Under the pieces are notes generated by a model, which made no database searches, had not been told where the DNA came from, and saw only the letters and a program-made list of their open reading frames with translations. Shown here in pieces: positions 1,956 through 22,260 of a stretch of 26,716 nt of DNA; the stretch's first letter is position 1, and every line of letters begins with the position of its first letter. Origin of the DNA: a virus; IMG/VR virus record IMGVR_UViG_3300032050_000688, positions 1 to 26,716 of that record. One strand, 5' to 3'. The position numbers and the translations under genes are program-made.

Positions 1956-3698
1956 GTGGCAGTATTTAGTCGCGAACCCGATAAGAATCGTGCGGGGCGT
2001 CGTAGATCAGCAGCAGCTGTCCGTCGTGCTATTAACTCTCCTTCTCTGTCTCTTAGCTCTATTGCAAACGTTCCAGGTTTTGCTACACCAGTCCCATACT
2101 CATATCCTCGTGGCCTTACTGCTGCCGCAGCGCAGATTCGTCTAAACGATAAGGGCGAGGCCGAGCAATTTCGTTCACGTCGTCTTGCAGGAGCAAACTC
2201 CTGGCAGACTGAGGCGTGGGAATACTATGACGCCATCGGTGAAATTAAATACGCATTTAGTCTTGTTGGATCTGTAATATCTCGTATTCGTCTTTATGCC
2301 GCGGTGATTGATAATCCTGCCGAGCCACCATTTCCAGTTCGCAACAGTGACCTATTAGATAAGCGTCTTGCCTCTGCCGCAGAGCGCGCAATTGTTCGTC
2401 TTGACTCCGCATACGGCGGACAGGCTGGACTTCTTCGTGATGCAGCGTTAAACCTAGCAGTTTCCGGTGAGTGTTACCTAGTCCAAATTCCAGAGCGCCG
2501 TGGACAAGGACTTCCAGAGACTTGGGATATTCGTTCAGTTGATGAAGTTCAGGTTGACCAAAAGGGTGCATACACAATTATTCCTCGTCGTGAGGCTTCA
2601 ACACTTACTGGACAAAAAAATGCTGGTCAACTTATTTTGCCAAAGAACGCTTTCGTTGGTCGTATCTGGAGAGCGCACCCACGATATTCCGACGAGGCTG
2701 ATTCAAGCCTACGCGGTTTGTTAGATCTTTGTGCAGAGCTACTTCTCCTCAACAGAACGTTCCGTGCTACTGCACGCTCACGCCTAAACGCTGGTGCGTT
2801 GTACTTACCTGACGGTCTTTCTGTTGCCGGTTCACCAGACCCAGATTATCCATATGATGATGATGACGCAACTAATCAAGACTTTAGTCCTGAGGAAGCA
2901 GCGGACGAGTTTGAAGATCAGTTGATGGATGCGATGACGACTCCGATTCGTGACGAGGACTCTGCGTCTGCAGTTGTTCCTCTTATCATTCGCGGTCCTG
3001 CTGAGCTTGGTGACAAGATTAAGCAATTCAAGTTTGAACGTTCATTTGACCCTGCACTTGCGCAACGTGCAGATCGCGTTCTTGAAAGAATCCTACAAGG
3101 TCTAGATGTACCAAAGGATATTGTTACAGGCCTTGCAAACGTAAAATACTCAAACGCTCTTCAAATTGATGAGTCTCTATACAAAGCACATATCGAACCG
3201 TTAATGCTTCTCATTGCAGACGCAATTACAGTTGTTTATCTGCGTCCTTACCTGATTGCAAATGGGTTCGACCCAGCTCAGGTAGAACGCATCTGCGTAT
3301 GGTATGACCCATCACAGGTAGCTACGCGCAATGACCGCGCGGCTGACGCAGATGCTGGATTTGACAGGGGAGTAATTTCCGGAGATGCGTGGCGTAGATC
3401 GCACGGATTCACAGAGCAGGATGCACCAACGCCAACAGAAGTTGCACTACGTCTTCTTAAGGAGAAGGGCGCAATCACGCCAGAGCTTACAGAGGCAATG
3501 CTTGGAGCCGTTGCTCCTGACGTAATGAAGGCAACACGTCTTGCATCACAGGCACAATCACTTGCACCAATTCCGCCAGAGGTTGAACGACTTCTTAAGG
3601 GACCACAGTCTACAGAACCAGTAGCTGACGAGGCTGCACCAGAAACTCCAGAGACGCCAACAGAGACAACAGAGCCAACACCGACAACAGAGGTTTAA
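1956..3698 (+). CDS. Portal protein
   Basis: The portal is the dodecameric ring at one capsid vertex through which DNA enters and leaves, and it docks terminase and the head-tail adaptor. The protein is 580 residues. Diagnostic features are the early helix GEIKYAFSLVGSVISRIRLY, the segment LRDAALNLAVSGECYLVQIP (the portal clip/wing pattern), and the stem and crown region LPKNAFVGRIWRAHPRYSDE through GLDVPKDIVTGLANVKYSNA. An acidic insertion (PYDDDDATNQDFSPEEAADEF) lies near residue 300. The C-terminus ends in a long Glu/Thr/Pro-rich tail (last 30 residues), probably disordered. A GTG start at 1956 is supported by AAGGAG at 1944-1949. The next gene begins two bases after the stop. Confidence 0.93.
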   Translation: MAVFSREPDKNRAGRRRSAAAVRRAINSPSLSLSSIANVPGFATPVPYSYPRGLTAAAAQIRLNDKGEAEQFRSRRLAGANSWQTEAWEYYDAIGEIKYAFSLVGSVISRIRLYAAVIDNPAEPPFPVRNSDLLDKRLASAAERAIVRLDSAYGGQAGLLRDAALNLAVSGECYLVQIPERRGQGLPETWDIRSVDEVQVDQKGAYTIIPRREASTLTGQKNAGQLILPKNAFVGRIWRAHPRYSDEADSSLRGLLDLCAELLLLNRTFRATARSRLNAGALYLPDGLSVAGSPDPDYPYDDDDATNQDFSPEEAADEFEDQLMDAMTTPIRDEDSASAVVPLIIRGPAELGDKIKQFKFERSFDPALAQRADRVLERILQGLDVPKDIVTGLANVKYSNALQIDESLYKAHIEPLMLLIADAITVVYLRPYLIANGFDPAQVERICVWYDPSQVATRNDRAADADAGFDRGVISGDAWRRSHGFTEQDAPTPTEVALRLLKEKGAITPELTEAMLGAVAPDVMKATRLASQAQSLAPIPPEVERLLKGPQSTEPVADEAAPETPETPTETTEPTPTTEV

Positions 3699-3700
3699 CA

Positions 3701-4516
3701 ATGTCAATTGAGCCAGTTGATCTTTTAGACTCTTACGAGCCAGTAACCGCTGCGGGCGAAGGTCCGTGCTGGGATGGTTACAAACAAGTTGGAATGAAGA
3801 AGGGTAAGAACGGAAACATGGTTCCTAACTGTGTTCCTAAAGACTCGTCTGATTCAACAGAAACAGAGTTTGCAAATCCTCGTGCTCCTAAAAAAGATCG
3901 CATCTACGGCTCAAAGAAAAATAAAAAAGGATCTGCGTCTGGCGGAAAGAAAATCGTGTTTAGCGCTCGAACAGAGGCAACGCTTCGTGAGAAGGTTAAG
4001 AAGCATAATGAAAAAGCGCCTGAAGGGCGTAAGGCAACACTTGGAATGTTAAAGGCGGTGTATCGCCGCGGCGCAGGTGCATTCTCAAGCTCGCACCGTG
4101 CAGGCATGACAAGAGATGGCTGGGCGTTTGCTCGCGTAAATGCATTTCTACGTCTATTAAAAAGTGGACGTCCCGCAAATCCAAACTACAAACAGGACAA
4201 TGATCTTTTACCAGCAAAGCATCCACGTTCAAGTAAAGGTGATGCTTCTGTGATTGCATCACTATACGCAAATCAAGAACTATATATTTCACTTAAGGAC
4301 GAAGAAGAGTATCACTCACCAGAACATGCAATCTTAGCTATGGCAGAACTTTCTGGAGAAGGATACGAAATTATCCCTGCCTTACGAGCAGCTTGGCTTC
4401 GTGGCGTTCGTGAGAACGAGTCGCCGTTTGACCGTGCAGCAGTTCTAGCGTCTGCTTTATATGATTCTAAAGACGCCGATCTTTTACCAACTAAGGAGTC
4501 ACCTCAAAGTGTATGA
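3701..4516 (+). CDS. DUF5824-type head-region protein with N-terminal Cys motif
   Basis: A 271-residue protein of unknown function. Three parts are visible. Residues 14-50 hold PVTAAGEGPCWDGYKQVG followed by a Lys/Gly loop and NCVPK; this two-Cys module occurs in many phage head proteins. Residues about 65-105 are very basic (KKNKKGSASGGKK). Residues 112-162 (VYRRGAGAFSSSHRAGMTRD, then WAFARVNAFL) match the pattern I know as DUF5824. The C-terminal third is helical. A motif DLLPAKHPRSS near residue 168 returns as DLLPTK at the C-terminus and as DLLPVGHPNS in the next protein. The gene starts two bases after the portal stop and overlaps the following gene by eight bases, so all three are probably cotranslated. 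A minor capsid or packaging role is inferred from position only. Confidence 0.82.
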   Translation: MSIEPVDLLDSYEPVTAAGEGPCWDGYKQVGMKKGKNGNMVPNCVPKDSSDSTETEFANPRAPKKDRIYGSKKNKKGSASGGKKIVFSARTEATLREKVKKHNEKAPEGRKATLGMLKAVYRRGAGAFSSSHRAGMTRDGWAFARVNAFLRLLKSGRPANPNYKQDNDLLPAKHPRSSKGDASVIASLYANQELYISLKDEEEYHSPEHAILAMAELSGEGYEIIPALRAAWLRGVRENESPFDRAAVLASALYDSKDADLLPTKESPQSV

Positions 4517-7500
4517 GCTAATTAACGATATTCTTACACGGAGAGAGAACACCGTAGTTGTAAAACCAAAGTTCCGTGGAGCAAAAAAGACACTTCGCCA
4601 ATCTGTACTTGAATTAGCTGCCACTGAAAATAAAAAGGTAACTGCTGAGCGTCGTGTTTCTACTCAGTCAGTTTTAGCCGTTGCTGAGCGCTCACTAAGT
4701 AAGACAGCTCATCTTGACGACAAAACTCGTAAGTTTATCGCGTATAAGGAAGTTTCATCTTTTATTAGCCTAGCGCAAACTGGAGAACTTCCATCAGGCT
4801 CAAAAATATCCTGCTTTGACCTTCTACCAGTAGGTCACCCTAACTCTACGTCACGTAATGCAATGACCGCGTCTGCACTACGTCACGCTCGTTCTCGCTG
4901 GATTGCAGCTGATCCACGTATCGATGATGAGGCAAGAGAGATCGTTGCGGCAGCGTATTTTTATGATAAGGATTCTGTAGAGTACGCACATGCAATTACC
5001 TCATTGCAGGTTCTTATCGCTGGTGGTGTTCCTCGTGAGGTTTATTTAACAGCACTCACCGCTGCATTTAGTTTTGGTGACGGTAACTCTTCAGCTGCTC
5101 GCCGTCTGCGCGCAAATCTACAGTGGCGTGACCGTTTAGGCCGCTGGATTGAAATGGGTCGCGGTATTGGTTTTAAGATTAACATCGGCGGGAACAACGT
5201 TCCGATCAATGGAAAGTTTGTTGGCGTTGATGGTAATCGCGGACTTGTTCAGGTTAAGGGTGATCCAAATCTCCCAGATGGTATCTATCCTGTTGAATCA
5301 AGTAACGCTCAGGAATACAAGGCGCTTCTACCAGACAGCGTAGCTGGAAAACTTAAGGGTAAGCTTTCTTCTATTCTTGAAAAAAGAGCGCAGATCTTCT
5401 CTAAGGAAGACATGATTAAGATGCGTATGGACGCACCTGCCGGTTGGAAAAAGAATGAGGACGGATCATTTGGTTCTGACGACGATTACATCGTAGAAGA
5501 GTCTGACGGAAAACTCGCGCTGTTCCGTAAGGACAAGAACGGTGACAAGGGCACACAGGTTGGTGAGCCAGTTGATGACTGGGCACAGATCCAAGATCTT
5601 GCAAACGCTGATGAAGAAGATTACGACAAGTTTAAGCGCATTATGTCTTCTCCAAGCAATAAGGATGTTCTTCCAGGTTCTGAGGAAGATCCTTACGATA
5701 AGCTTAATCCTTCTGCAAAGGCTGTGCTAGAAGAGCAGAAAGCTAAGAAGGCAAAAGATAAAGCGTTCTTTGAAGAAAAGAAAAAGAAGTACAACGAGGA
5801 CGTTGATAAGTTTGAAGAGATGTTTGAGCAAGGAAAGGATATTGAAGGACGTGACATTCCTGAAGGCTGGGAACTTGGAATTAGCAAGTACTCGACTGAT
5901 GGCGCCCCTGAGATTAGAACGTTCCAAAAGTTAGTACCAAGTGCAGACGGAAAGAATCAAGTTCAGGTAATTGCAGAAATTGATGACAAAGGCAAGATTA
6001 AGTTTGGACACCGCGCTAATTGGTTTAATAAGGACGAACAAGGATTTGAAGGATACGACACCTGGGAAGAAGTTGAGGCGCGTATTCCTGATGTTGTTAA
6101 GTGGGTTGGAGACTCAAAGAGTCTACAACACGACCCGGCCGATCCTTGGTTTAAGGAAACCATCCCTGTTCCTCGCGCTGGAGATGATGAGCCCGTCGCA
6201 AAGATAGAAGCTAAAGATATCGGAGAATTTCCTGGTCCTGAAGACCAAGAAGGTCCTATCATCGTGCGTGATCTTCCTAAAAAAGAAGAGCCTGTAGCAT
6301 CTAAGTTTACACCTTCTAAAAACGCGTGGAAACTTCAGAGTCCAGAAAAGTTTGAACCCGAAGGTCGCGTTGATGATGAGCAAAGTCCAGATTTTTCAGA
6401 TGACCCAGAAGTTCTTGCAAACAAGTTTGGTGAAGATGCACTTGTTGACGCATTTATTCAAGCAATCGTTGGTAAAAAGGATTACGCGTTAGATCTTCTT
6501 GATGACAGCTCTTCTGAAGAAGAAGAAGAAGAAGTAGACGAAGACGGAAAGCCTATAAAGAAGCCAAAGAAGAAAGGACCTGGCGCTCCTAAAAAACAGC
6601 CTGAAAAGCCGATTGTTGGTCTTGGCGTTGGCGCTCTTGATTTTAAGGGTGGCGAAGAGTGGATTCCAGCAGAGGCAATCTATCTTGCACTAAAGAAGCA
6701 AGGATACGATGCTGATCTTCTTCTTGCACAACTGTATGACACAGGTTTAGGCGAAAGTAAGAATCAAGATCTTCTTAAGTCTCTTCGTAAGGAAGAAACT
6801 GTAGAGATGCAGACACCTCTACTTGACGCAATTGATCCTGATGATGCAGATGCTATTGCAAGAGCAAACGTTGATGTTGCACTCGCGGACTCTGGATCTG
6901 CAGTAGTTTCGCAGCTGCTAGAACTTAATAGAAGTGGTGAGCCAAACGCTAAGATCGTAGAACTTGCTGCTGCCATTAGAAATGCAAAAGGAGCTTCAGC
7001 AGGAAGCAAAGACGAGAAGATCTCAGAAGATCTTCAAAAACTGCTAGATGATTACATTGGAGGAGCACTTGACCCCGATGCGTCTCCTGAGGACAAACAA
7101 GCGTTTCAAGCGCTATGGGCAACAATCACTGCTCTTGATGAGGGAATCAGTGACGGTGTAGAGGAGACTAGACTTGCACTTGGCGTGTTTGACGCAATTA
7201 AAAAGTATAACGGATCTGCTGAGTGGCCAGAGGTGCAAGAGTTCTTTAAGAAAAATGGAAGCATAAACGATCTAATTAAGTCAAAGCAAGCCATAATTGA
7301 TGGAAGAGAATCAATTGACAGCGACACCTCTTTTGCTGGTGCATTCTTTAGACTTATGGTTGAGTCATCTCGGTACAATCAAACATCTTTGTATCGAGGA
7401 ATACAGGTGCCAAATGATAGTCCTCTTTTAGAGAAAATTAGAAATGGAGAAGTTCTAGCATTTGATGCTCGCTCGTTCTCAATGGATCAAAACTTAGCCA

Positions 7501-10500: not shown

Positions 10501-12272
10501 TAAAAGGTAAAATTGAAACTGAGTCAACTCCATTTGACCAAGGCGAGCAAGAGATCCAGCAAGAGCTTGATGCAGATGTAGACTCAAGCACAGAAGATCT
10601 AGATGTTCCTGAAGGTCTATTGTCAGCTCCAGACGCTAATGGAAAAAATGTTTTTGCAGGCGTAAAGGTTGCTGATAAAGACGGAGTAATTGGAACTGTA
10701 ATCGGAGTAAATAAGCAAAATTACGCAAGAGTAGATTTTGGAAACGGAACTGTTAAGTGGCGTTCAGTTAAAACATTGAAATCTACAGGAGAGCTTGATG
10801 AGAACTTCCAAGGATCTACAGTAAAGGTAAGCGGAGGTAAGTCTACCGGAGCAGGCGCGCCACCAGTTATCGTTGATAGTCCAGCAGACTGGAAACTATC
10901 AAACTTTGAAAATGTACCCGCACTTCCTGACGCAATCGCAAGAGTTTTAGACACAACTGACAAGAACGCCGGAATGCGCGGAGCTTCAGTTGCAGTGGAT
11001 GCAGACTCCATTGAAGATCTTGATGTTCGTGTAATTCATGTTAAGGATGAGAATGGCGTTGATAACATTCAACTAAAGTTTAAGCTCACAAACTGGGCAG
11101 GAAAACAAAGAGTAGCTGAAATAGCTAAGATGACTCCTTCTGAGCAAGCAGAAAATGGAATTCAAGTTAGCCCGATGAAAATTCAAAGAATTGACGTCGA
11201 CAAGGACGGTGTTGGACAAATCTCTAGCACAGAGACTGCCTACACTAACGGTGCAGGTAGAACTTACACAATTACCACTGAGGACGGAATTGTTATTAAG
11301 ATTCATCGCGCAAACGCTGATGGTTCTGATACCTTTGGTAAAGGATATGGACAGAGCCCTGCCCGTGCGTTTCATAATACAGTTCAAATTCAAGCACCGG
11401 TTGATGCAACCGAGGACCAGATTGCAAATGCCTTAAAAATTGCTGGTGTCAGCGAGGTTCGTCCAGCTACACCGGCTGACTCAAAGATTCTTGTCGAGAA
11501 TCGCCTGATGAGTATATTTGATGCAAAGACAGATGCAAACACAAACCCTAAAGGTGAAAAGAGAGCAGAAAGCTTAGCAAAGGTAAAGGACAAGTGGGGT
11601 CTAACTGTAGACGACGTTATTGTTACCACGGGTGCCTCTGGAAGAATAGAGTACCGTCTTTCTCCAGAAGGAGCAAAAAAGATCTGGGAGGCGACAGGAA
11701 AACCTGCAGTTATTAACCACAGTCTTCGTAATCCAGGGATTCTTTCCTACACCATGACGGAAGAGGAGAAGGACAAAGCAATGACCGATTGGATTGTTGG
11801 TCTTATTGACAATCCTCAAGGAGGTCTACTTTCAACGACAGCTCGATGGACAGAAGGCGTTGGCGTTCATGGCCAGTCAAGCGCAAGAGACATCGAGACC
11901 GGAGGAGCAGACTACGTATTTACTCGTCCTTCTAGCAATGACGGCAAGAAAAGATACGGGACTAGCGATTACGTACCTACCCTGTATTTTGATCCTTTAA
12001 AGTTGTATGAACGTCTAGACTTTTACGCAAACTACACTGATAAGTTTGGGGCACGTCAAAAGAACAAGGATGTTATCTCTGCGGCAAAGGTTGGAGCCTA
12101 CGAGGTTATGTTCAAACATCGCCTTGCCTGGGAAGATCTTGACGTTATGGTAGTTTCTAAGAGAGTTCACACAGGAGTAATTGAGGGACTAAAGGCTCGA
12201 GGAATTACAACAATTGGTGGTCGTCCAATCGAGGAGGTTATCATTATTGAAACAGGAGAGACTAAGACATGA
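4509..12272 (+). CDS. Giant (2,587 aa) multidomain protein: ADP-ribosyltransferase + kinase-like + C-terminal ART-like
   Basis: The GTG at 4509 is preferred because AAGGAG lies at 4493-4498. The protein is highly acidic and mosaic. Residues 103-200 hold DLLPVGHPNS and helices; 207-213 RDRLGRW; 228-290 a small beta barrel-like segment. Residues 667-700 are an acidic (Ser3Glu6) then Lys/Pro-rich stretch. Residues about 870-1070 are an R-S-ExE ADP-ribosyltransferase (R963, S989-F-S991, E1035-Q-E1037). Residues about 1220-1450 are a HipA/PI-kinase-like core (K1252, E1263, D1331, N1339, D1352). Residues 1608-1668 and 2048-2093 are KOW/SH3-like modules, with a Pro/Thr linker at about 1675-1708. A C-terminal domain (about 2370-2587) contains GGADYVFTR. 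Its place between portal and protease suggests a capsid-internal protein that may be ejected into the host. The N-terminal function is unknown. No frameshift is seen. Confidence 0.88.
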   Translation: MYELINDILTRRENTVVVKPKFRGAKKTLRQSVLELAATENKKVTAERRVSTQSVLAVAERSLSKTAHLDDKTRKFIAYKEVSSFISLAQTGELPSGSKISCFDLLPVGHPNSTSRNAMTASALRHARSRWIAADPRIDDEAREIVAAAYFYDKDSVEYAHAITSLQVLIAGGVPREVYLTALTAAFSFGDGNSSAARRLRANLQWRDRLGRWIEMGRGIGFKINIGGNNVPINGKFVGVDGNRGLVQVKGDPNLPDGIYPVESSNAQEYKALLPDSVAGKLKGKLSSILEKRAQIFSKEDMIKMRMDAPAGWKKNEDGSFGSDDDYIVEESDGKLALFRKDKNGDKGTQVGEPVDDWAQIQDLANADEEDYDKFKRIMSSPSNKDVLPGSEEDPYDKLNPSAKAVLEEQKAKKAKDKAFFEEKKKKYNEDVDKFEEMFEQGKDIEGRDIPEGWELGISKYSTDGAPEIRTFQKLVPSADGKNQVQVIAEIDDKGKIKFGHRANWFNKDEQGFEGYDTWEEVEARIPDVVKWVGDSKSLQHDPADPWFKETIPVPRAGDDEPVAKIEAKDIGEFPGPEDQEGPIIVRDLPKKEEPVASKFTPSKNAWKLQSPEKFEPEGRVDDEQSPDFSDDPEVLANKFGEDALVDAFIQAIVGKKDYALDLLDDSSSEEEEEEVDEDGKPIKKPKKKGPGAPKKQPEKPIVGLGVGALDFKGGEEWIPAEAIYLALKKQGYDADLLLAQLYDTGLGESKNQDLLKSLRKEETVEMQTPLLDAIDPDDADAIARANVDVALADSGSAVVSQLLELNRSGEPNAKIVELAAAIRNAKGASAGSKDEKISEDLQKLLDDYIGGALDPDASPEDKQAFQALWATITALDEGISDGVEETRLALGVFDAIKKYNGSAEWPEVQEFFKKNGSINDLIKSKQAIIDGRESIDSDTSFAGAFFRLMVESSRYNQTSLYRGIQVPNDSPLLEKIRNGEVLAFDARSFSMDQNLARVFSGGLNSVKDKTAVVFTIRPEKGRSVDLSRLSPFEEQEHRVLGNFKIVKVKESKNSAGKTVLEVEIETLSKRDAVLSGLDSDYENLLMETNESPEMPEGYHKIDPARYESRADQEYPENFEDKPNAVARSYPREKLAPAFRAAIEDGSGEVILKVDDEKEVTVAVELIRDALQIQGVDTNALLEDIANADPDAEVTNEEADAVEESSENPVNAIVEEANTEYDMQNWKKVGPQLGSNEGGFYEDAEGNRYYVKTPKSDLHAENEVLAAALYKLLGVDAADLGIASADDGVKKTFSPDIIGSKQDLQEKLNDPEYLAKLQEGFAVDAWLGNWDVAGLGFDNVMSDGDGNPVRVDPGGALLFRAMGKPKGSLFGNDVNELDTLRDPNMNPQSAAIFGSMTDEQQKESARKLLNISNDDIDSMVDGIVSNPEAAQEIKDKLKARRKFILDRYDLLSEDSSTLIENVDVEDENDKDPEAVSTPEGKSKEIDSRLDTARSWAEEYALDENMLASARKKFQAVADQIDKVLVDWRNGEISDEELPGVLDELRDLADFGKIGDDTELLNNIDDLDEQLMNLKEYIEEENKKNAPDKVEVEEPAKSADPVPTESVTNPYKDKNGTPIEPGAKLRYEKKGVVLEGVFVKYDKSVQYVQVKFPDEKKARAMSTKYLTVITDGDDGGGGESPKAPEPSPAPTSAPDPTPTPSVEPDADDLVDEKKEPKQDDIGQFDTTAKLTEDGKKVRVSFVVDGNRPFNPNSDTGPNSYEEVLPYAVDSKLDVDGVDEVTVEIPLEKMDEFLKTYQSFFNEKLVPEEFYGDLYEKSPKKLQAHSQMIKDLLDQQGTKISDEKANQIRDAIDQEGLVDWSEADDADIISAITDIVAPGIVDISEEIATGEASKEEKKEEPKPEESKSEEPGPFFDKDLNKAAQLVANLYQYGGLKSEDLVGVNPELGAIAVNVDGQILVFDGPNDKYTTIEDADKDFYAGGDGAVFGWREPTTAEQVDLKGKIETESTPFDQGEQEIQQELDADVDSSTEDLDVPEGLLSAPDANGKNVFAGVKVADKDGVIGTVIGVNKQNYARVDFGNGTVKWRSVKTLKSTGELDENFQGSTVKVSGGKSTGAGAPPVIVDSPADWKLSNFENVPALPDAIARVLDTTDKNAGMRGASVAVDADSIEDLDVRVIHVKDENGVDNIQLKFKLTNWAGKQRVAEIAKMTPSEQAENGIQVSPMKIQRIDVDKDGVGQISSTETAYTNGAGRTYTITTEDGIVIKIHRANADGSDTFGKGYGQSPARAFHNTVQIQAPVDATEDQIANALKIAGVSEVRPATPADSKILVENRLMSIFDAKTDANTNPKGEKRAESLAKVKDKWGLTVDDVIVTTGASGRIEYRLSPEGAKKIWEATGKPAVINHSLRNPGILSYTMTEEEKDKAMTDWIVGLIDNPQGGLLSTTARWTEGVGVHGQSSARDIETGGADYVFTRPSSNDGKKRYGTSDYVPTLYFDPLKLYERLDFYANYTDKFGARQKNKDVISAAKVGAYEVMFKHRLAWEDLDVMVVSKRVHTGVIEGLKARGITTIGGRPIEEVIIIETGETKT
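6516..6533 (+). repeat. GAA trinucleotide run (six units), coding for Glu6
   Basis: Six tandem GAA codons encode residues 670-675 of the giant protein, directly after three Ser codons and before a Lys/Pro-rich stretch. It is a simple repeat inside a charged, probably disordered linker and could vary in length by slippage. Confidence 0.85.
7130..7720 (+). other. Domain: R-S-ExE ADP-ribosyltransferase (VIP2/C3-like)
   Basis: Within the giant protein, the three catalytic elements of arginine-type ADP-ribosyltransferases occur in order and at normal spacing. They are LYRGI (R963, NAD binding), DARSFSMD (the S-T-S position, here S-F-S at 989-991) and FEEQEHRV (ExE at 1035-1037). A helical N-lobe precedes them (about residues 870-955). 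All key residues are present, so the domain is probably active. By family knowledge the R-S-ExE set with E at the first Glu position usually marks arginine-directed transferases. Phage enzymes of this kind (T4 Alt is the model) travel in the head and modify host RNA polymerase or ribosomal proteins; the target here is unknown. Confidence 0.88.
8169..8880 (+). other. Domain: HipA/PI-kinase-like catalytic core
   Basis: Within the giant protein, residues about 1220-1450 show kinase landmarks in order. RYYVKTPKSD contains the ATP-binding Lys (K1252). HAENEVLAAALYKLLGV contains the helix-C Glu (E1263). GNWDVAGLGFDNV is a catalytic loop with D1331 and N1339. PVRVDPGGALLFR is the metal-binding Asp (D1352) in a D-P-G-G variant of the DFG motif. 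This layout is closer to HipA and phosphoinositide 3/4-kinase-like enzymes than to eukaryote-like protein kinases. Such domains are known in phage polyvalent proteins. The substrate is not predictable from sequence. The family call rests on motif order, with no alignment run. Confidence 0.7.
11610..12269 (+). other. Domain: C-terminal ART-like fold (PARP/DarT-like pattern), putative
   Basis: The last 200 or so residues of the giant protein carry VINHSLRN (H2404), LLSTTARWTEGVGVHGQSS, GGADYVFTR (about 2465) and YEVMFKHRLAWEDLDVMVV (E2532), ending in ARGITTIGGRPIEEV. I recall a very similar C-terminal segment in other actinophage giant head proteins. The order (His on a first strand, an I/L-L-S-T helix entry, a G-x-x-Y-V-F strand resembling the PARP GxYF turn, then a Glu beginning an E-V-x-F strand) is what an H-x-E ADP-ribosyltransferase would show. 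That fold assignment is inference and needs a structure prediction. Confidence 0.4.
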
Positions 12273-13333
12273 TGAATAAGTTAAAGCTTACAGACGAGGC
12301 CGCGTGGAAGACAGACGAAGGCTTTCTAGCCGGACCAGCGGTTCTTGTTGCTAACACTGAAAACGGTTCAGCCATGCTTAAGCCTATCTATGGACTTCAC
12401 ATCGAAGAGCTTGACGGTAGCCCACATGTTGGAGCAGCTACCATTGAAGGTATACGCTACTACCCTCTTGTTCGCGCGGAGGATGTTCGCGTAAGTGCAA
12501 TTAGAGGAGACATAACATTCTCAAGTTACGGTACTATTTATACGGTAAGGGCATTTCAAGATATTGATGGTAGATGGGCTTCTCGTCTAAAAACCGTCGT
12601 TCCTGCTGAGGCGTTAGAGGAGATATACATGGCAGAGGTAAAGTTGGCGTTTACTCCGAACGCTCCTGCTCTTGATGACAGTTTATATGCGGCAATTGAC
12701 AGTGAGTCAGACGAGGTTAAATATCTTGTGTATTCATCTGAGGCTGGAATGTACACCCGCTCAAATCGTGGCTGGTTTAAGTTGCCGGTTGATGACGAGT
12801 CACTTGATGGCCTAGAGGTTCACGAGGTAACTCCTAAGTTTACTAAGATATTTGATATGGCAGAAGGAAATGAGGAAATTCTTACCTCAAAGGACACTGC
12901 CCAATACGCAGGCGAGGAGTCAGAGCCGATTACCGCGGCAGCTGAGTCAAACCCAGATTGCCCACCAGCAACACAGGACATCAAAGTTAATCTTGAAAAT
13001 CGTGAATACGCGATTAAAAATGCTGGATACGGCCCATTGAATCCAAACGAACCAAATGATGAGTTTTGGGAAGAAAAAGGAAAGCGCTGGGGCGTTGACG
13101 CTGATGAGGCACGAAAGAGTACATGTGCCAACTGTGTAATGTTTATTCGTACACCAAGCATGCTTGACTGTATTTCATCTGGAATTCAGCAAGGCGGATC
13201 CTCTAGTGATGATGCCTGGGACGCAGTTGATACTGCAGAACTTGGTTACTGCGAGGCTTTAGATTTTAAGTGTGCTGCTTCTCGTACTTGTAGCGCGTGG
13301 GTAGTCGGCGGACCCATTACGGAGGAAGAATAA
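12269..13333 (+). CDS. Cys-rich virion-region protein, possible metal-binding C-terminal domain
   Basis: A 354-residue protein. The ATG at 12269 overlaps the preceding stop (ATGA), and a second in-frame ATG follows at 12272; the short overlap supports coupled translation. Residues 1-215 are beta-rich and unfamiliar. At 219-226 stands EPITAAAE, a motif shared with neighbouring head proteins, which then leads into a distinct C-terminal domain. That domain has seven cysteines: C231, C286 and C289 (CANC), C301, C328 (GYCEAL), C335 and C341 (RTCSAW). The arrangement WGVD, CxxC, DCI, GYC, FKC, RTCSAW recurs in head-region proteins of marine and actinobacterial phages as I recall, and resembles a small iron-sulfur (HiPIP-like) or zinc module. 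The metal is not determinable here. The gene overlaps no protease coding sequence if the protease starts at 13336. Confidence 0.82.
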   Translation: MMNKLKLTDEAAWKTDEGFLAGPAVLVANTENGSAMLKPIYGLHIEELDGSPHVGAATIEGIRYYPLVRAEDVRVSAIRGDITFSSYGTIYTVRAFQDIDGRWASRLKTVVPAEALEEIYMAEVKLAFTPNAPALDDSLYAAIDSESDEVKYLVYSSEAGMYTRSNRGWFKLPVDDESLDGLEVHEVTPKFTKIFDMAEGNEEILTSKDTAQYAGEESEPITAAAESNPDCPPATQDIKVNLENREYAIKNAGYGPLNPNEPNDEFWEEKGKRWGVDADEARKSTCANCVMFIRTPSMLDCISSGIQQGGSSSDDAWDAVDTAELGYCEALDFKCAASRTCSAWVVGGPITEEE

Positions 13334-13335
13334 AA

Positions 13336-16300
13336 GTGGTAAACGTACTCGGAGTTAGAGACTCACTAGTTCTATTTCAAAGTGGAGACAGTGGAGTTGT
13401 AATTGACAAGGACGTTAATCTTGTCGTTGAGACTGGTGACGCTGAGGCATTGTTTGCCTCAAGTAGCTGGAATCCTAACTCTGAAGAGATTTCACAGTCA
13501 ATGTTTGATCTTGCGCACGGCGCACTTGCAAATTTAGAAATTAAGGTAATTGTTGCATCAGGTCGTCTCTACACAATTCCTCGTGGAGTACAAGTTGAAG
13601 CAAAGAAGGCGCTTGAATGGCGCAAGGAACATAAGAGAGGAGGGACACCCGTTGGCCTCAACACCGCGCGCACTCTTTCTAAGGGAGGGCAAATTGGAAT
13701 CGAAAAAGTTAGGCATATTGCGAAGTATTTTCCGCGCCATGAGATTGATAAGAAGGCGGAAGGGTGGCAACCAGGTGAGAAGGGCTTTCCTTCTCGCGGG
13801 CGTATTGCGTGGGCTCTCTGGGGCGGGGATGCTGGATGGCGATGGGCGCAAGCAATCGTCGAAAGAGAAAACAAAAAATCTTTAACTGCTGATGGCTATG
13901 GTCTTCCTGGATATGAACAAGACCCTAACGAATATGAGGCTCCTCGTCTTTACACATCAGATTTAGACGCGTTTAAAGAAGCAATGGAAAAACCAGAAAT
14001 TGTTTCTCCAGAATTTATTGCCCGCGTAAGACTTGATGGATCTGGCATTGACCGTCTTTACAAGATTGATCTTGATGGAAGCGTTTTTGTTTGGGATGGA
14101 TCTGGCTGGGACACATTAGGACTTTATGGTGCAGATATTTACGCATATGACAACGCACTTGATGATAATGAAGATATTTACGTTGAAAAATCTCACGTTG
14201 TAATTGATCCTGATTCTGCAATAATCATAGCTGCACGACTACAACTAAATCCTGACCGTTGCGTAATGGTAGAGGACATTGACTACGATGAGGCTCAACT
14301 TGCTGCCCGCGCAATGAACGAGGTTGACTGGGAGTACGTTGATAGCGCAATGACTGCTGCTGGAGAACAGTCTACAGCACCAGTAACTGATGGAGAGTAT
14401 TCTCCAGAGGAACGCTCAAAGAATGCAGCTCGCCAAGTTCGCGATGCATCAGGCCGCTTTGCTTCACAAGGCTCTCGCGTTGTTGTTGGTGGTGACGTGC
14501 AAAATGGTGTTGGTACTATTCGTGCGATTAACCCTGAGTCAAGCACGGTAAAGGTTCAATTTGACAACGGAACAATGGCAGACGTTCCAGCAGCAAGCAC
14601 TGAGAAGGTTGACAAGTACATTGGTGCAATCTCAAGAGAGACTATAGAAACTCCAGGATTTGATACTACGGGAATACTTGCTCAACCACGTACTCCAATT
14701 GACCGTCCAGATGTTCAGATTCCTGGAACTCTTCCAGCACTTCGCCCAAGTGATATGTCTGAGATTGTTAACAATTGGCCAGCGTGGGTTAAATCGCAAA
14801 GAGATCAATTTAAGGGTGCGGATTCTGCTACTCCAACTTCAGCTCCAGCACCATCGTCTAATCTAAAGACTTCTCCAACAGGTACACCACCTTCTGTGCC
14901 TACAAGCCCAGGTGGTTCTCCAATCTCTTCACAGGCTAAACCTGACCGCGCGGAAACTCGCTGGTATGACGAATCAAAGATTCCTGATGATAGAACTGAC
15001 AAGATGAAGGACTTGATGAAGACAACTGGCGATAAACTTACGCTAGATGCCTATGATCATCCTTTATTAAAGAACTTCTTAAACAAGACGGTAAAAACAA
15101 AGTCTGGAGAAACGTTAAAGCCAAATCAGCTTTGGTATCAGCCTATCGCGCCAGCAGTTAGAGGCGCGGCAGCAGCAGAAGAATTAACACCAGATAACTC
15201 TGACGTTCAACCTCTATTTATGGCACTTGTATCTCCAGATGATCCTCGTGCGGTTATGGATTTAGTTGCTCTTGTCCCAGCAAACTCAAAATCAACTCTT
15301 CCAATGACATACAAAAGAGCTGAAGGCAAGTGGGTTCGTGATGAGGGAATTCTAGGAGATCTAAACTCAGCAACTCCTCCTCCAGTGGTCCCTCTCGACA
15401 GTGCTACTCTTCAAGATGTGCTAAAGCAAATTGACACCAACACTGTTACTGCATCCGTCGTTGTGTCTGAGACATTAGATCACATTCTTACAGTCTTATG
15501 GGGACCAACACTTGTTGCTGCTGGCGGACTTGACCGTAACCGTGGAAACGCTGAAAAGCTTCGTCGCTATTGGACAGTTGGTAAGGGCGGTCTAAAGATT
15601 CGTTGGAATACTGGCGGAGACTGGACCCGTTGTGTTCGTCAGCTATCTAAGTATCTTGGACCTCGTGCAAAAGGATATTGTTCTCTTCGTCATAAGGAGA
15701 TGACCGGAATGTGGACAGGTGATAAAAAACATCGTCAGCTTTATGGACGTAAAGGCCGTGGACGTAATGCATTTAGCAATGATGTTATTGCAACGTCTGA
15801 GGAGATTATCGAGAGAGCCGCGTTAAATGCTCGCGCAAGAGACGCGCGTGTCCGTATGGGACTAGTCGCGTCTATTGAAGGATACAAGGGATCAGCTTTT
15901 AAGATGCCTCTTGTTATTCCTGAAGAGATCGAGTCTGGTGACGGTCGTAAGTTCCGTAAAAACGCAATTGATATGCGCGAACTACCGCTTCCTTTAATGT
16001 GGCAGATTAAGACTGGTGAAGGTCACATGGGATCAGTTGTAGTTGGTCGCATTGATCAAATGGAAAGAACTGACCAAGGCATTGGAAATGCCTATGGAGT
16101 ATTTGATACTGGTGAATATGGCAAGGAAGCAGAACGTCTTGTTCGCGAAGGTTTTATCCGTGGAATTTCAGCTGACATGGATATGTTTGAAGCCAAGGAA
16201 GAAAAAATAGAAGCTGGAGACGATACAGAAGGCAAGGTAGGTAATGGTAAGATTGACATTACTAAAGCACGAGTTATGGGAGTTACTATCGTGCCTAAGC

Positions 16301-18066
16301 CTGCGTTCCAAGAATGCAAGATTTTCCTCGTTGAGGAAGAAAAAGAGATACAGGAGGATAACGTGATTCCTGACGGAGTCTATGTGGAAGATGTGGATCC
16401 GACAGAAGCAGCGTCGCTAGTCGCATGCGGCTTTGTCGCTGGCGCGATCCCGGTTGTTCCACCTAAAAGCTGGTTTGACAATCAGCAACTTAATAAGCCA
16501 ACGCCACTTACGGTGACAGACGAAGGCCAAGTGTATGGTCACATTGCTGCATGGCATGTAGATCACATTGGACTAGCGTATGGAACTAAGCCACCTCGCT
16601 CAAAGAGCAAGTACGCCTACTTCCACACAGGAGTGGTTCGTACCGATGATGGAACAGATGTTCCTGTCGGCCAACTAACATTAGCAGGTGGACATGCTTC
16701 ACTCGAGGCTAGCGCTCACGAGGCTGCTCGTCACTATGACGATACCGCCTCTGCGATTGCAGATGTTCACGCAGGTGAAGATGCCTACGGTATCTGGGTA
16801 GCTGGATCAATTCGTCCAGGCGCTACTCCAGAACAAATTCGTGCTCTTCGTGCATCAGCACCTTCTGGTGACTGGCGTCCAATTAAGAACAGCCTTGAGC
16901 TTGTTGCCGTATGTCAGGTAAACGTTCCAGGGTTCCCAATTGCTCGTGCCCGTGTTGCATCAGGCCAGGTTATGGCACTTGTTGCCGCTGGCGCAAGTAC
17001 ATTAGCTAAGCTAAAGAGTGACCCTGTGTCAGAACTTGCTGCTCGTGTACAAAAACTGGAGCAGTTAGAACTAGTAGAACTTTCAGCAAAAGCTGATGGT
17101 GCTCGCGAGCGTTTTGCCGATATTCGTGCAGCCCGTAGGGCAGAACTTCAAGCACAGATCGCCGAGCTTTCTTCTCGCGTTCTTCCAACGGAAGATTATG
17201 AAGACGGATTTGGTTACATCTCCCGTGAGACTCGCCAAAAGCTTGCCAAGGAAGGTAAGGCTCTACCGGACGGTTCTTATCCAATCACAAACGTAGATAG
17301 CCTAAAGGATTCCATCCAGGCCTATGGACGTGGCAAGCCTTCAAAGCGTGCGGCGATTCGTCGTCACATCATGAAGCGTGCTCGCGTTCTTGACCGTGCG
17401 GACCTTATTCCTGAAAAATGGAAGGCAATGTCCTCAGAGGAGATTAGCTTTGCAGTAGAAGGTCTTCGTTCACGTATTCCTGCAACTACAGCCTCAGCAG
17501 AGGAAACAACCGACTTGGGAAAAGCATTAGCGGTTGAGACTGCCGAGCCAGAGGCTAAATACGTCTCTGGCAAGACTCAACCGCGTGATTCTAAAGGAAA
17601 GTTTCGTCAAGTTCTAGCCCGTATTAAGCAGGACCTTGGAGAGTCTGGTCTACAGGACGTTGTAGAAAAGATCGCCGAGACTGAGGGACTAGAAAATGCT
17701 GGTAACTACGTTGAGGCTGCTCGTTCTGCGACGGATCTCATTGGAATTATTGACCGCATTGACTCAAGGGCTCTTAATCCAGAGGCCCTAACAAACGTGC
17801 GCGAGAGTGCACGCGCTCTTGGCGAGACAATCGCCAACCTACCTTTACCTTTTGGAGCGGAAGCAACAAAGGTAAGATTTAGCGATCTACCTCCTGCCCT
17901 ACGTGATCTTGTCGATGACATGATTACAAGGGTTGAAGACAAGATCGGTAAAAAAGACGCGGACGTCGCTACCGAAGGACTACGCGCCTATATGGCTGGA
18001 GGAGACTACTTAAACCAGAGCCAAATAAGCTCTCAATTAAGTAAGCTTCTTCGACTATTAACCTAA
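13336..18066 (+). CDS. Capsid maturation (prohead) protease, giant mosaic form
   Basis: A 1,576-residue protein; GTG at 13336 is chosen because GGAGGAAG lies at 13321-13328. Modules in order: residues 90-180, a conserved basic block (LEWRKEHKRGGTPVGLNTAR, KVRHIAKYFPRHEID); 182-187 SLTADG and 337-344 SAMTAAGE; 369-375 RDASGRF plus a KOW/SH3-like module to 425; a Pro/Ser-rich linker; 734-805, RNRGNAEKLRRYWTVGKGG to KGYCSLRH. The protease core is at 845-1010, with catalytic His897 (GEGHMGS) and Ser945 (FIRGISADMDMF), then VMGVTIVPKPAF, as in U35-type proteases. Residues 1046-1215 (KPTPLTVTDEGQVYGHIAAW, SGDWRPI) are the actinophage protease companion domain. A coiled coil (1228-1283), a YISRETRQKLAKEG module (1288-1365) and a scaffold-like C-terminus (1414-1576) follow. 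It should process scaffold and head proteins. Such proteases are usually much shorter. Confidence 0.9.
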   Translation: MVNVLGVRDSLVLFQSGDSGVVIDKDVNLVVETGDAEALFASSSWNPNSEEISQSMFDLAHGALANLEIKVIVASGRLYTIPRGVQVEAKKALEWRKEHKRGGTPVGLNTARTLSKGGQIGIEKVRHIAKYFPRHEIDKKAEGWQPGEKGFPSRGRIAWALWGGDAGWRWAQAIVERENKKSLTADGYGLPGYEQDPNEYEAPRLYTSDLDAFKEAMEKPEIVSPEFIARVRLDGSGIDRLYKIDLDGSVFVWDGSGWDTLGLYGADIYAYDNALDDNEDIYVEKSHVVIDPDSAIIIAARLQLNPDRCVMVEDIDYDEAQLAARAMNEVDWEYVDSAMTAAGEQSTAPVTDGEYSPEERSKNAARQVRDASGRFASQGSRVVVGGDVQNGVGTIRAINPESSTVKVQFDNGTMADVPAASTEKVDKYIGAISRETIETPGFDTTGILAQPRTPIDRPDVQIPGTLPALRPSDMSEIVNNWPAWVKSQRDQFKGADSATPTSAPAPSSNLKTSPTGTPPSVPTSPGGSPISSQAKPDRAETRWYDESKIPDDRTDKMKDLMKTTGDKLTLDAYDHPLLKNFLNKTVKTKSGETLKPNQLWYQPIAPAVRGAAAAEELTPDNSDVQPLFMALVSPDDPRAVMDLVALVPANSKSTLPMTYKRAEGKWVRDEGILGDLNSATPPPVVPLDSATLQDVLKQIDTNTVTASVVVSETLDHILTVLWGPTLVAAGGLDRNRGNAEKLRRYWTVGKGGLKIRWNTGGDWTRCVRQLSKYLGPRAKGYCSLRHKEMTGMWTGDKKHRQLYGRKGRGRNAFSNDVIATSEEIIERAALNARARDARVRMGLVASIEGYKGSAFKMPLVIPEEIESGDGRKFRKNAIDMRELPLPLMWQIKTGEGHMGSVVVGRIDQMERTDQGIGNAYGVFDTGEYGKEAERLVREGFIRGISADMDMFEAKEEKIEAGDDTEGKVGNGKIDITKARVMGVTIVPKPAFQECKIFLVEEEKEIQEDNVIPDGVYVEDVDPTEAASLVACGFVAGAIPVVPPKSWFDNQQLNKPTPLTVTDEGQVYGHIAAWHVDHIGLAYGTKPPRSKSKYAYFHTGVVRTDDGTDVPVGQLTLAGGHASLEASAHEAARHYDDTASAIADVHAGEDAYGIWVAGSIRPGATPEQIRALRASAPSGDWRPIKNSLELVAVCQVNVPGFPIARARVASGQVMALVAAGASTLAKLKSDPVSELAARVQKLEQLELVELSAKADGARERFADIRAARRAELQAQIAELSSRVLPTEDYEDGFGYISRETRQKLAKEGKALPDGSYPITNVDSLKDSIQAYGRGKPSKRAAIRRHIMKRARVLDRADLIPEKWKAMSSEEISFAVEGLRSRIPATTASAEETTDLGKALAVETAEPEAKYVSGKTQPRDSKGKFRQVLARIKQDLGESGLQDVVEKIAETEGLENAGNYVEAARSATDLIGIIDRIDSRALNPEALTNVRESARALGETIANLPLPFGAEATKVRFSDLPPALRDLVDDMITRVEDKIGKKDADVATEGLRAYMAGGDYLNQSQISSQLSKLLRLLT

Positions 18067-18092: not shown

Positions 18093-18172
18093 GTGGAGTG
18101 CCTCCACGCTATTGCAGCGGAGTCCCTCGGCCTTGGACTGATCAACGAGACGAATGAGAAATCTCGTTCGTC
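18093..18172 (+). promoter_or_regulatory. Structured RNA leader upstream of the major capsid gene (three hairpins)
   Basis: Three inverted repeats follow one another in the 129 bases between the protease stop and the capsid start. Stem GTGGAG/CTCCAC is at 18093-18107 with a 3-base loop. AGTCC/GGACT is at 18121-18139. A strong 10-bp stem GACGAATGAG/CTCGTTCGTC (one G-U) is at 18149-18172 with loop AAAT. There is no T run, so this is not a simple terminator. It ends 11 bases before the capsid Shine-Dalgarno. A role in mRNA stability, processing or translation of the highly expressed capsid gene is likely but inferred. Confidence 0.6.
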
Positions 18173-18195: not shown

Positions 18196-20205
18196 GTGGA
18201 CCGTATTAAAGAAATGCTAGATACACTAACTGAGCTTAACGAGGATCAACTCGCTGAGCTTCAAAGTGCTATCGTAAGCGAGTTTGAGACGGTTGAAAAG
18301 GAAGATCCAACTCCCCAGACAGTAGATGCGATGACATCACTAGCTGACATGCTTGACACAGTACGCAATGAAGCAAAGCGTCGCGAGGCACAAGCTGAAG
18401 AGCTTGCTGCACGTGCTGCAGAGGCTGCAATGCGCGTCAAGGGTGAAGCTGAAGATGCTCCAAAGGCTGAAGGCGAAGCCGAACCTATGGAAGAGGACAA
18501 AGAAGCTGAAAAAGCTCCTGCTGTTCCTGCTATGGAAGAGGAAAAGCCAGCAGACAAAGAGCCAATGGCTGAAGCGTCAACAACTGTGGATAAGGTTTCT
18601 GAATTATCGACCGATAACACTACCGCTGAGACAATTGTCGAAGCAACACCAGCTGCCGAGGCAGCTACAGAAGCTGCACCTGTAACAGAGGCAGCCGCAA
18701 CAGAAGTTAAGGCAGAGGAAACCACAACCGTGGAATTCGCTGCAGAAGAAGCTAAGGTAGAAGCAGTTGCTGAAGAGGCACCTGCTGTAACTGCAGCAGC
18801 AGAAGAGGCACCAGTTGCCGAGGCTGTAGCTGAAGTTGTTGCCGAGGCAGAAGCACAAACCACAACAACAGAAACCGCTCAAGTTATTGAGCAGAAGGAG
18901 CAGGAGGCACCAGTGACCGCCGCCGCATCAACAGAGGATACCTCAAACATCGAGGTTCCAGCTGACCGTCGCCCAGTAGCTCAGAGTTCAGCAGCCGCAG
19001 TGGCAATCACAGCGGGCGCTGATATTCCTGGCTACACAGCAGGCAGTGAAGTAAAGGACATGAACGAAGTAGCTGGCCTTATGGCAAAGCGTCTTCATGG
19101 ATTCCGTAACGTAAATGGTGGAAATGGCGAGCAACACATCGTTGCTTCATTCTCTACCTCATTCCCAGAGGAGCGCACTCTTACTACAGATGCTGAATCC
19201 AACTGGGCAAAAATCCAGGCAGTAACATCCCCTGAGGCACTTGTTGCTTCTGGTGGACACGTTGCTCCATTCGAGGTTAAGTACGATATCTTTGGTATCG
19301 GCTCAACCGCTCGTCCAGTTCGCGATTGCCTACCTAGATTCCAGGCTAACCGCGGCGGTATTCGTTTCGTAACTCCACCAGTACTTAGCTCATATGCTAA
19401 CGCTGTTGGTGTTTGGACAAACGCCGTTGACACAAACCCAGGCACCGAGACCAAGCTTAGCTTGACAGTTGCTGCAGCAGCAGAGACCACCGTCGCAACA
19501 GACGCTGTAACTCTACAAATGCAGTTCGGTAACCTTGCAACACGCGCATATCCAGAGCTTATCGCTCGTCACAACGAGCTTGGCTTGATTCAACATGCAC
19601 GTGAGGCCGAGCAAAACATCATGACCAAGATCGGTGACGCTTCAACAGCAGTCACAAGCACATCCCTAATCGGATTTGGCCGCGATTTCTTGGTACAAAT
19701 TGGCCGCGCAGCAGCAGCCTACCGTTCACGTCACCGTCTAGAGAATGATGCACCACTACGTGCAATCATCCCTGGCTGGGTAAAGGACGCAATGGCAGCA
19801 GATCTCACAATCGCAGCACCTGGAGATAACACTCTAAATGCATACGCAGAGATCGATGGATACGTCGCATCACGTGGAGTAAATCTATGTGTGTCTCTTG
19901 ACGGCAACGTATTCGGCTCACAATCAGCTGGCGCTCTAAACGAGTTCTCAGATACATTCGTATGGTACATCTTCGCAGAGGGTTCATTCCTCTTCTTAGA
20001 CGGTGGCACACTTGATCTTGGAATCGTTCGCGACAGCACACTTGTTGGAACAAACGACTACAAGATGTTCGTTGAGACCTTTGAAGGTGTCGCGTTCGTT
20101 GGTGTCGAGTCCCTCAAGGTAACAAGCACCATTAGCGTCAACGGCGTAGCAGCAGCTCTCCGTGACACAACTGGTGGCGCAACAGCTGCGGCAATTGAGT
20201 ACTAA
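18196..20205 (+). CDS. Major capsid protein (HK97 fold) with N-terminal scaffold-like arm
   Basis: A 669-residue protein starting at GTG 18196. Residues 1-80 (DRIKEMLDTLTELNEDQLAE and a helix to EELAARAAEAAMRV) are a coiled-coil scaffold-like (delta) arm. Residues 80-245 are acidic Ala/Glu/Pro/Thr low complexity. PVTAAA at 239-244 marks a likely maturation cleavage site, followed by ADRRPVAQ. From about 265 comes the actinophage HK97-fold capsid: VASFSTSFPEERTL, GGHVAPFEVKYDIFG, IRFVTPPVL, NLATRAYPELIARHNELGLI, and the E-loop/A-domain end GTLDLGIVRDSTLVGTNDYK. The capsid part alone (about 400 residues) is normal for the family; the arm makes it long. Codons such as ATC, TTC and TAC are more frequent than in the giant neighbours, as expected for very high expression. 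A strong leader precedes it and a hairpin follows. Confidence 0.95.
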   Translation: MDRIKEMLDTLTELNEDQLAELQSAIVSEFETVEKEDPTPQTVDAMTSLADMLDTVRNEAKRREAQAEELAARAAEAAMRVKGEAEDAPKAEGEAEPMEEDKEAEKAPAVPAMEEEKPADKEPMAEASTTVDKVSELSTDNTTAETIVEATPAAEAATEAAPVTEAAATEVKAEETTTVEFAAEEAKVEAVAEEAPAVTAAAEEAPVAEAVAEVVAEAEAQTTTTETAQVIEQKEQEAPVTAAASTEDTSNIEVPADRRPVAQSSAAAVAITAGADIPGYTAGSEVKDMNEVAGLMAKRLHGFRNVNGGNGEQHIVASFSTSFPEERTLTTDAESNWAKIQAVTSPEALVASGGHVAPFEVKYDIFGIGSTARPVRDCLPRFQANRGGIRFVTPPVLSSYANAVGVWTNAVDTNPGTETKLSLTVAAAAETTVATDAVTLQMQFGNLATRAYPELIARHNELGLIQHAREAEQNIMTKIGDASTAVTSTSLIGFGRDFLVQIGRAAAAYRSRHRLENDAPLRAIIPGWVKDAMAADLTIAAPGDNTLNAYAEIDGYVASRGVNLCVSLDGNVFGSQSAGALNEFSDTFVWYIFAEGSFLFLDGGTLDLGIVRDSTLVGTNDYKMFVETFEGVAFVGVESLKVTSTISVNGVAAALRDTTGGATAAAIEY

Positions 20206-21213: not shown

Positions 21214-22260
21214 ATGGCAACTCAAGATTACGCCGCAAGTATTCAAGGCGTGTCCATTCGGGTTACTCGCCTCGATGCGGCCGGTAATCTTCTGAATGGT
21301 GCGGGAGACAGCTACACTACGTCAGCTTTCATCCGCGTATCATTTACGCCTGAATATGAAGAAGGAGATGAAATTACAGAGAAGGCTGCTGATGGCACCG
21401 TCTGTGTAGTTTACAAGTCCCCAGATACGCTAAAGCGTATCACGATGGAACTGGCAATTTGTGAGCCAGATCCTGAACTAACACAACTTTTGTCCGGTGG
21501 CCTTTTGCTTCGCAAAAACACTGGAACATTCGCAGCACCAAATCGCAAGTCAATCGGTTGGTCTTCACCAGCTGTTGGTGATGATCCTGCAGCAGCAGGC
21601 GTTGCCCTTGAGTGCTGGTCGTTTGCAATTAAGGATGGAAAGAAGAGCTCAACTCTTCCTTACTTCCACTGGGTATTCCCTTACGTCAAGATTCGTCAAT
21701 CTGGCGACCGTGTAATTGAGAATGGTTTGCTTGCAAACACATTCGAAGGTTATGGTCTTGGAAACACGAACTTTGGTTCAGGCCTTGATGAGCGCTGGGA
21801 GTTCCCAGTTGCAACAGAGCGTCCATACTCATATGCACGCGCTGCATGGGCACCAACAGGTCGTAACGGTTTCTATACCTGGCACCCAGATATTACAAAG
21901 TCAGTAAACAACAAAGCTTTATCAAGCAACGTTGCAACTCTGACAACCTCAACAGCTCACACTTTTGCAGTTGGCGATACAGTAACCGTGAGTGGTATTG
22001 ATGCAACATTCAATGGTACCTTCACAATTACTGCCGTGCCAAGCACAACAACCTTCCGCTATGCTAAGACAGCTGGTGACGTTGGTTCAGTTGCAGTGAG
22101 CCCAGTAGGAACAGCACTAGTTCCAACCAACAGCCGTGCAGTCACTGACTTCACAAGCCAAGGTTCAACAAGTGAATATAACGTTCCTGGAAACAATGAT
22201 TACAACGCCGATCTACCAATCGACTTCATCATTGCTTCATCTGAGGATCCAGTAGCGTAG
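21214..22260 (+). CDS. Major tail protein with C-terminal Ig-like/decoration module
   Basis: The tail tube subunit, 348 residues, with AAGGAG at 21198-21203. Residues 10-230 show the actinophage tube pattern: SIRVTRLDAAGNLLNGAGDS, FTPEYEEGDEITEKAADGTV, PDTLKRITMELAICEPDPEL, and the beta-rich PYFHWVFPYVKIRQSGDRV to ERWEFPV. Residues about 232-305 form an added module, with SSNVATLTTSTAHTFAVGD, TVTVSGIDATFNGTFTITAV and TTFRYAK. This module recurs in many unrelated phage virion proteins. It would sit on the tube surface and could act in weak host-surface binding or stabilisation. The rest (to 348) is polar. The gene lies before the head-tail joining genes, unlike the lambda or HK97 order. A strong hairpin follows the stop. 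Confidence 0.88.
   Translation: MATQDYAASIQGVSIRVTRLDAAGNLLNGAGDSYTTSAFIRVSFTPEYEEGDEITEKAADGTVCVVYKSPDTLKRITMELAICEPDPELTQLLSGGLLLRKNTGTFAAPNRKSIGWSSPAVGDDPAAAGVALECWSFAIKDGKKSSTLPYFHWVFPYVKIRQSGDRVIENGLLANTFEGYGLGNTNFGSGLDERWEFPVATERPYSYARAAWAPTGRNGFYTWHPDITKSVNNKALSSNVATLTTSTAHTFAVGDTVTVSGIDATFNGTFTITAVPSTTTFRYAKTAGDVGSVAVSPVGTALVPTNSRAVTDFTSQGSTSEYNVPGNNDYNADLPIDFIIASSEDPVA

Follow-up and report, generated by a model that had tools for sequence, protein, structure and literature searches.

Introduction

The bond cut by the HCMV protease, a herpesvirus assemblin, lies between Ala and Ser. Assay substrates for this enzyme carry the sequence VVNA-SS (PMC3853728), and a close mimic of VVNA-SS has served as a reporter substrate whose P1 Ala fits that bond (PMC12632753). 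Herpesvirus assemblins are made as precursors and freed by self-cleavage (PMC4498786, PMC8537868). Among tailed phages, the prohead protease gp245 of SPN3US cuts head proteins at AXE, including the portal, the capsid protein, ejected proteins and the protease itself (PMC10052503). In the mycobacteriophages Omega and LittleE, removal of the N-terminal arm of the capsid protein has been shown by N-terminal sequencing (PMC3706429). Moreover, assemblin-like peptidases have been proposed to process large polyvalent proteins of phages (PMC5512222).

The window studied here, the whole 26.7-kb stretch of a virus record, holds a head block in the order portal, DUF5824 protein, 2603-aa protein, Cys-rich protein, 1589-aa protease protein and capsid. 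Its closest named phage found is Actinomycetia phage DSL-LC01, and the next-closest phages infect Microbacterium (Big4, Cece, Pumpernickel, A3Wally), Arthrobacter (Atuin, Mimi) and Gordonia (GMA2, Sixama, Forza, Phendrix). Most head-building proteins of this phage and its many relatives carry at their borders a recurrent four-residue tag, made up of a hydrophobic residue, usually Thr or Val, Ala, and either Ala or Ser. As judged from sequence, this tag is very probably the processing site of the phage's capsid maturation (prohead) protease.

Results and Discussion

A shared motif in the head proteins

A first-pass annotation of the window had proposed a recurring [P/A][V/I/M]TAA[G/A] string as a common maturation-protease cleavage signal. 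It listed PVTAAGE, PITAAAE, AMTAAGE and PVTAAA, with SLTADG as a weaker form, and all five peptides translate from the + strand exactly where it had placed them. Its residue numbering uses GTG 18196 for the capsid and GTG 13336 for the protease protein. These are probably the true starts, rather than the longest-ORF starts at 18154 (capsid) and 13297 (protease protein), because the proteins of relatives begin there.

The strict pattern [PA][VIM]TAA[GA] occurs five times in four proteins of the window, with 0.03 occurrences expected from within-protein shuffles, a contrast that is weak by itself as the pattern was chosen post hoc. The proposed consensus is real but too narrow, since T, V, A, I, K and S can all stand at P2 and either A or S at P1', and the trailing E is dispensable. 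What had been noticed in one record is a general pattern in related phages. In the portal-to-capsid proteins of 12 phages, the wider form [LIVMF][TV][AS][ASG][AG] is found 154 times against 16 expected from shuffles (61,766 aa), a whole-set total that is inflated by shared ancestry, for which the shuffles make no correction. The remaining proteins of the same loci give 30 against 27 expected (80,550 aa), and ORFs of other genome regions, a set that includes some structural-like collagen proteins of DSL-LC01, give 25 against 15 (64,441 aa). With the narrower [PA][LIVMF]TA[AS], the counts are 55 against 3.2 expected in head proteins, 2 against 4 in the rest of the loci and 1 against 2 in other regions. 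Furthermore, the excess of the wider form is seen in each of the 12 phages taken singly, tail and replication proteins stay at background level, and 63 sites with unrelated flanks are left after removal of those with related flanks.

One objection is that Ala/Thr-rich linkers yield such strings by composition alone. Many sites do lie in low-complexity linkers, but shuffling within 25-aa local blocks leaves 15.8 expected matches against the 154 forward motifs observed, and the reversed motif is not enriched (21 against 15.5 expected from the same local shuffles). Additionally, hydrophobic-T-A-[AS] is the commonest among its 24 residue orders, the next three overlapping it, and control segments neighbouring the linkers, after PEER or CPxAT, contain no sites. 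Local shuffles and reversed and permuted motifs thus contradict an origin from composition or low complexity, which is hardly credible. When tetrapeptides are counted without any pattern, TASA, VASG, ALVA and LVAS come out near the top of the list for head proteins but not for the remaining proteins.

In a logo of 101 dereplicated sites, P4 is Pro or Ala, P3 is Val, Leu, Ile or Met, P2 is Thr in 78%, P1 is Ala, P1' is Ala in 93% and Ser in 7%, and P2' is Ala, Gly or Val, often followed by an acidic residue. As the search pattern dictated P3, P1 and P1', these frequencies are descriptive and no proof of the bond. At orthologous linkers of viral contigs, the phi-x-A-[AS] island is kept while its flanks diverge. 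Linkers from viral contigs were dereplicated at 70% identity for the phi-x-A-[AS] counts given below; the relaxed motif and the linker anchors were fixed after the alignments had been viewed, and the shuffles were scored with the same relaxed form.

The capsid protein

The capsid gene shows the following features, numbered from GTG 18196.

18196..18444, + strand: helical scaffold-like arm, residues 1-83 (model helices 2-9, 16-35 and 40-83; pLDDT mostly 73-86)
18445..19029, + strand: flexible linker, residues 84-278, which carries the border site (pLDDT mostly <40; aligns poorly in relatives)
18784..18804, + strand: extra AVTAAAE in the arm linker, not conserved
18910..18930, + strand: arm/body border site P239-V-T-A|A-A-S245, predicted cut marked
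19030..20205, + strand: capsid body, HK97-like major head protein, phrog_777

A helical N-terminal arm thus precedes an HK97-like body. The arm is confident in the model, which is poor elsewhere, body included (mean pLDDT 45), and the site at residues 239-244 sits near the end of the flexible stretch. All 32 dereplicated capsid proteins taken from viral contigs have V/M-T-A at the border within this hypervariable linker, and E-A-[PT]-[VM]-T-A-[AS] forms an island between stretches that vary in both sequence and length. The phages compared all keep h-[TA]-A-[SA] at this border (12/12), the distant ones as TVTAS, TVTAA or PVTAS and the Gordonia phages as AMAAS. Border linkers contain phi-x-A-[AS] in 26 of 28 cases, against a shuffled mean of 2.3. 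By eye, similar strings stand at the capsid border of the smaller actinophages Xkcd426, Gaea, Tank and TurkishDelight, which have distant capsids, and of the cluster B mycobacteriophages Akoma and Phipps; where looked at, the portal N-termini of both sets show them too.

The predicted scissile bond is probably phi-T-A|A/S, and the mature capsid would then probably begin near A243. It is rather unlikely that the bond lies one residue later (phi-T-A-A|) or that the capsid is really cut some 31 residues downstream, at AITAGADIPG. In favour of the downstream cut, AITAGADIPG is invariant in close relatives, but the Gordonia phages have lost its P1 Ala (RATVGTD, RPVIGHD) and keep MAAS at the upstream site. 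For this reason AITAGADIPG was rejected as a cut site and is more likely the start of the capsid body. As for the later bond, a P1 Ala followed by Ala or Ser fits 101/101 collected sites, though the search pattern required it. Some matches to the motif, among them LVASGG within the body and AITAGAD beyond the border, are surely structural and uncut.

A sequence search for solved relatives of the capsid protein gave none, either for the window protein or for its profile. Hits of the Akoma capsid to solved structures were set aside, as they fall on its C-terminal add-on domain. Elsewhere in the window, the C-terminal stretch of the major tail protein (21214-22260) matches virion structural families of other phages and is probably an add-on domain.

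The portal and internal head proteins

Sites of the portal and of the proteins between portal and protease are as follows.

2115..2129, + strand: portal N-terminal site R-G-LTAAA, residues 54-58
3740..3760, + strand: PVTAAGE of the DUF5824 protein, ahead of its Cys module
4860..4877, + strand: AMTASA in the 2603-aa protein, kept only in close relatives
5052..5066, + strand: ALTAA of the 2603-aa protein, ahead of its RDRxGRW module and equal to residue 8 of the Big4, Cece and A3Wally homologues
12926..12946, + strand: PITAAAE of the Cys-rich protein, ahead of its CPPATQD domain

All 25 portals compared have the portal site, which the first-pass annotation had missed, in the form R-[PAG]-[LIM]-x-A-A-A, and phi-x-A-[AS] stands at the portal N-terminus in all 15 dereplicated sequences against a shuffled mean of 2.8. 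Its conservation could alternatively be structural. Among internal proteins, the leaders of the DUF5824 Cys module carry phi-x-A-[AS] in 11 of 21 dereplicated relatives (1.1 expected), and the linkers before CPxATxD of the Cys-rich protein in 27 of 33 (2.4 expected). The 2603-aa protein has few sites.

Two further observations concern these genes. The CWxGYxxxGxKxxxGxxVPNC module (3701-4516) lies near the portal gene in many relatives with variable leaders, and about half of its dereplicated leaders contain a cleavage-like motif. Residues ~976-1075 of the 2603-aa protein (4461-12272) resemble, by eye, an R-S-ExE ADP-ribosyltransferase (LYRGI...RSFSMD...EQEH); Pfam did not detect this stretch, and in Gordonia relatives the same block includes a protein annotated as ADP-ribosyltransferase.

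The protease polyprotein

The 1589-aa protein (13297-18066) carries the protease module and a series of candidate sites.

13879..13896, + strand: SLTADG, a weak and doubtful site
14347..14367, + strand: AMTAAGE linker site
15511..15525, + strand: LVAAG before GLDRNRG
15862..15876, + strand: LVASI immediately ahead of the S78 domain, a candidate site for N-terminal release
15892..16338, + strand: protease domain of the S78 (assemblin/gp21-like) kind, residues 866-1014 when counted from 13297
16366..17136, + strand: second conserved domain AGGHA...PSGDWRPI, residues 1024-1280, annotated as capsid maturation protease in many phages
16978..16992, + strand: LVAAG immediately behind the second domain, a candidate site for C-terminal release

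Linkers around residue 352 contain phi-x-A-[AS] in 22 of 32 dereplicated sequences (1.4 expected). With G also allowed at the last position (phi-x-A-[ASG]), the motif is found in 33 of 37 linkers before DRNRG (4.4 expected) and in 31 of 43 before S78 (9.3 expected). The site after the second domain is kept as L-[VT]-A-A-G in 12/12 phages and occurs in viral contigs as well. SLTADG is present in the sequence but doubtful as a site, being a conserved [LV]-x-A-D-G-[YF] string in relatives; Microbacterium phages have LTASA at this position. The four strict sites of the first-pass list were right, but the list was incomplete: LTAAA, AMTASA, ALTAA, both LVAAG sites, LVASI and AVTAAAE were absent from it.

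The protease domain matches Pfam Peptidase_S78 (PF04586) weakly, with 18.3 bits against a cut-off of 21; DSL-LC01 scores 23 bits in a genome search, just over the cut-off, and 19.9 in another search, just under it. An AlphaFold2 model of the protease protein built from 41 sequences is reasonably confident for the S78 domain only. Foldseek returned EBV protease and T4 gp21 as weak first matches to this model, none with E <0.001. VIA-align 2 gave T4 gp21 (5jbl) a Z of 9.7 over 117 residues and VZV protease (1vzv) a Z of 9.1, followed by further herpesvirus proteases, and the first unrelated row has a Z of 5.8. According to the model, the S78 domain is folded like T4 gp21 and herpesvirus assemblin. 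His910 and Ser958 (H45 and S93 of A1/A3) are invariant in 8 and 41 sequences and are candidate catalytic residues.

The sites may also be cut by something other than S78, namely the second domain (AGGHA...PSGDWR, residues 1024-1280) or a host protease, a reading with an appreciable but clearly minor chance. The second domain is present in 11/11 phages tested and in 831 phage records, as compared with 73 records with a detectable S78, and S78 could not be detected by BLAST, profile or whole-record search in GMA2, Sixama, Forza, Phendrix and Gaea, five Gordonia phages that all keep the sites. However, it is S78 that has the right fold and the invariant His and Ser in 41 sequences; any catalytic role of the second domain is hypothetical, and its model is of low confidence. 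A host protease would not account for the restriction to head genes. When the second domain was compared with S78 by profile, to see if it could be a diverged S78 copy, no relation appeared between the two shallow profiles.

In DSL-LC01 three adjacent genes take the place of the 1589-aa protein, and in Arthrobacter and Gordonia phages its counterparts are likewise encoded separately. Because of this split in relatives, its parts can function as separate polypeptides.

Proposed processing and its significance

The reading of the motif as a common cleavage signal is supported on comparative grounds: the sites lie in linkers between conserved blocks and keep only hydrophobic-x-Ala-Ala/Ser. The first-pass annotation had placed the four strict sites at borders, the capsid one between arm and body. 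Concentration in head proteins, conserved linker positions, the disordered border of the capsid and the flanked protease module point in the same direction. A literature search found no mass spectrometry or N-terminal sequence for virion proteins of close relatives.

The precursors, that is, the portal, the DUF5824 protein, the 2603-aa protein, the Cys-rich protein, the protease polyprotein and the capsid, would be built into the prohead. The protease, whose two domains have LVASI on their upstream side and LVAAG on their downstream side, would free itself and then cut exposed flexible linkers at a P3 aliphatic residue, P2 mostly Thr, and P1 Ala, with Ala or Ser at P1'. Such cutting would take off the helical scaffold arm of the capsid to give a mature start near A243, trim the portal N-terminus and split the modules of internal head proteins before DNA packaging. 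We infer that cutting occurs, and likewise the exact bond, the order of events and the cutting domain.

The motif might instead be a head-targeting or scaffold-binding signal that directs proteins into the prohead and is itself uncut, which we regard as quite improbable. Its concentration in head proteins would suit such a role, and T4 propeptides also act in core targeting (PMC10052503). However, several copies per protein, placed on both sides of the protease module and in internal linkers, would be odd for a tag, and the P3/P1 pattern is like that of assemblin substrates; both roles could also combine.

The cleavage reading provides a concrete signature for a large group of actinobacterial phages with mostly 'hypothetical' head proteins. 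It predicts the mature ends of capsid and portal, and suggests how the 1589-aa polyprotein and its neighbours get cut into working pieces. Right precursor boundaries are important for structural work on these capsids. Furthermore, it would tie phage capsid proteases to herpesvirus ones by substrate preference. More tentatively, and less likely than not, phages with this protease module use the assemblin-like rule aliphatic-x-Ala|Ala/Ser; tailed phages might then have the substrate rule, beyond the protease fold, in common with herpesviruses, and for many head and injected proteins of actinophages processing could be read from sequence.

Comparison with known systems

As with multi-substrate prohead proteases, one short motif runs across the head proteins and falls to background level in other phage proteins. 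SPN3US gp245, phiKZ and T4 gp21 are alike in having a single head protease with many head substrates, a short common motif and self-cleavage (PMC10052503), and gp245 also resembles the present case in having several motifs per propeptide (PMC10052503). In contrast to the P1 Glu of SPN3US, P1 here is Ala, as the pattern defines, with Ala or Ser at P1', and no Glu is conserved within the islands. Unlike SPN3US, phiKZ and T4, the lineage infects Actinobacteria and its protease lies within a 1589-aa polyprotein.

Herpesvirus assemblin may share the aliphatic P3, the P1 Ala and the small P1', which are defined here by the search pattern, and it has a related protease fold (Z 9.1 with VZV protease). 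PVTA-AA may accordingly be likened to VVNA-SS. Self-release of a precursor protease is a further likeness, proposed only for the present phage. P2, however, is mostly Thr here, as compared with Asn in the substrate of HCMV. In the present phage, moreover, the capsid protein includes the scaffold, and many more substrates are predicted.

HK97-type phages, Omega and LittleE share with the window the removal, predicted here, of an N-terminal scaffold arm from the capsid. The arm in the window, in contrast, has about 242 residues with a long disordered linker, and other proteins also carry the site; the mature N-terminus of Omega and LittleE, DLDRNN..., has no such motif on the primed side. Polyvalent proteins with C-terminal assemblin-like peptidases are likewise large phage proteins with several domains, in which the peptidase is predicted to act in processing (PMC5512222). 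The available text of that source names no cleavage signal, whereas a motif across separate head proteins is proposed here. The mechanism itself is already known from T4, phiKZ and SPN3US, whereas the signature and the substrate set appear to be new.
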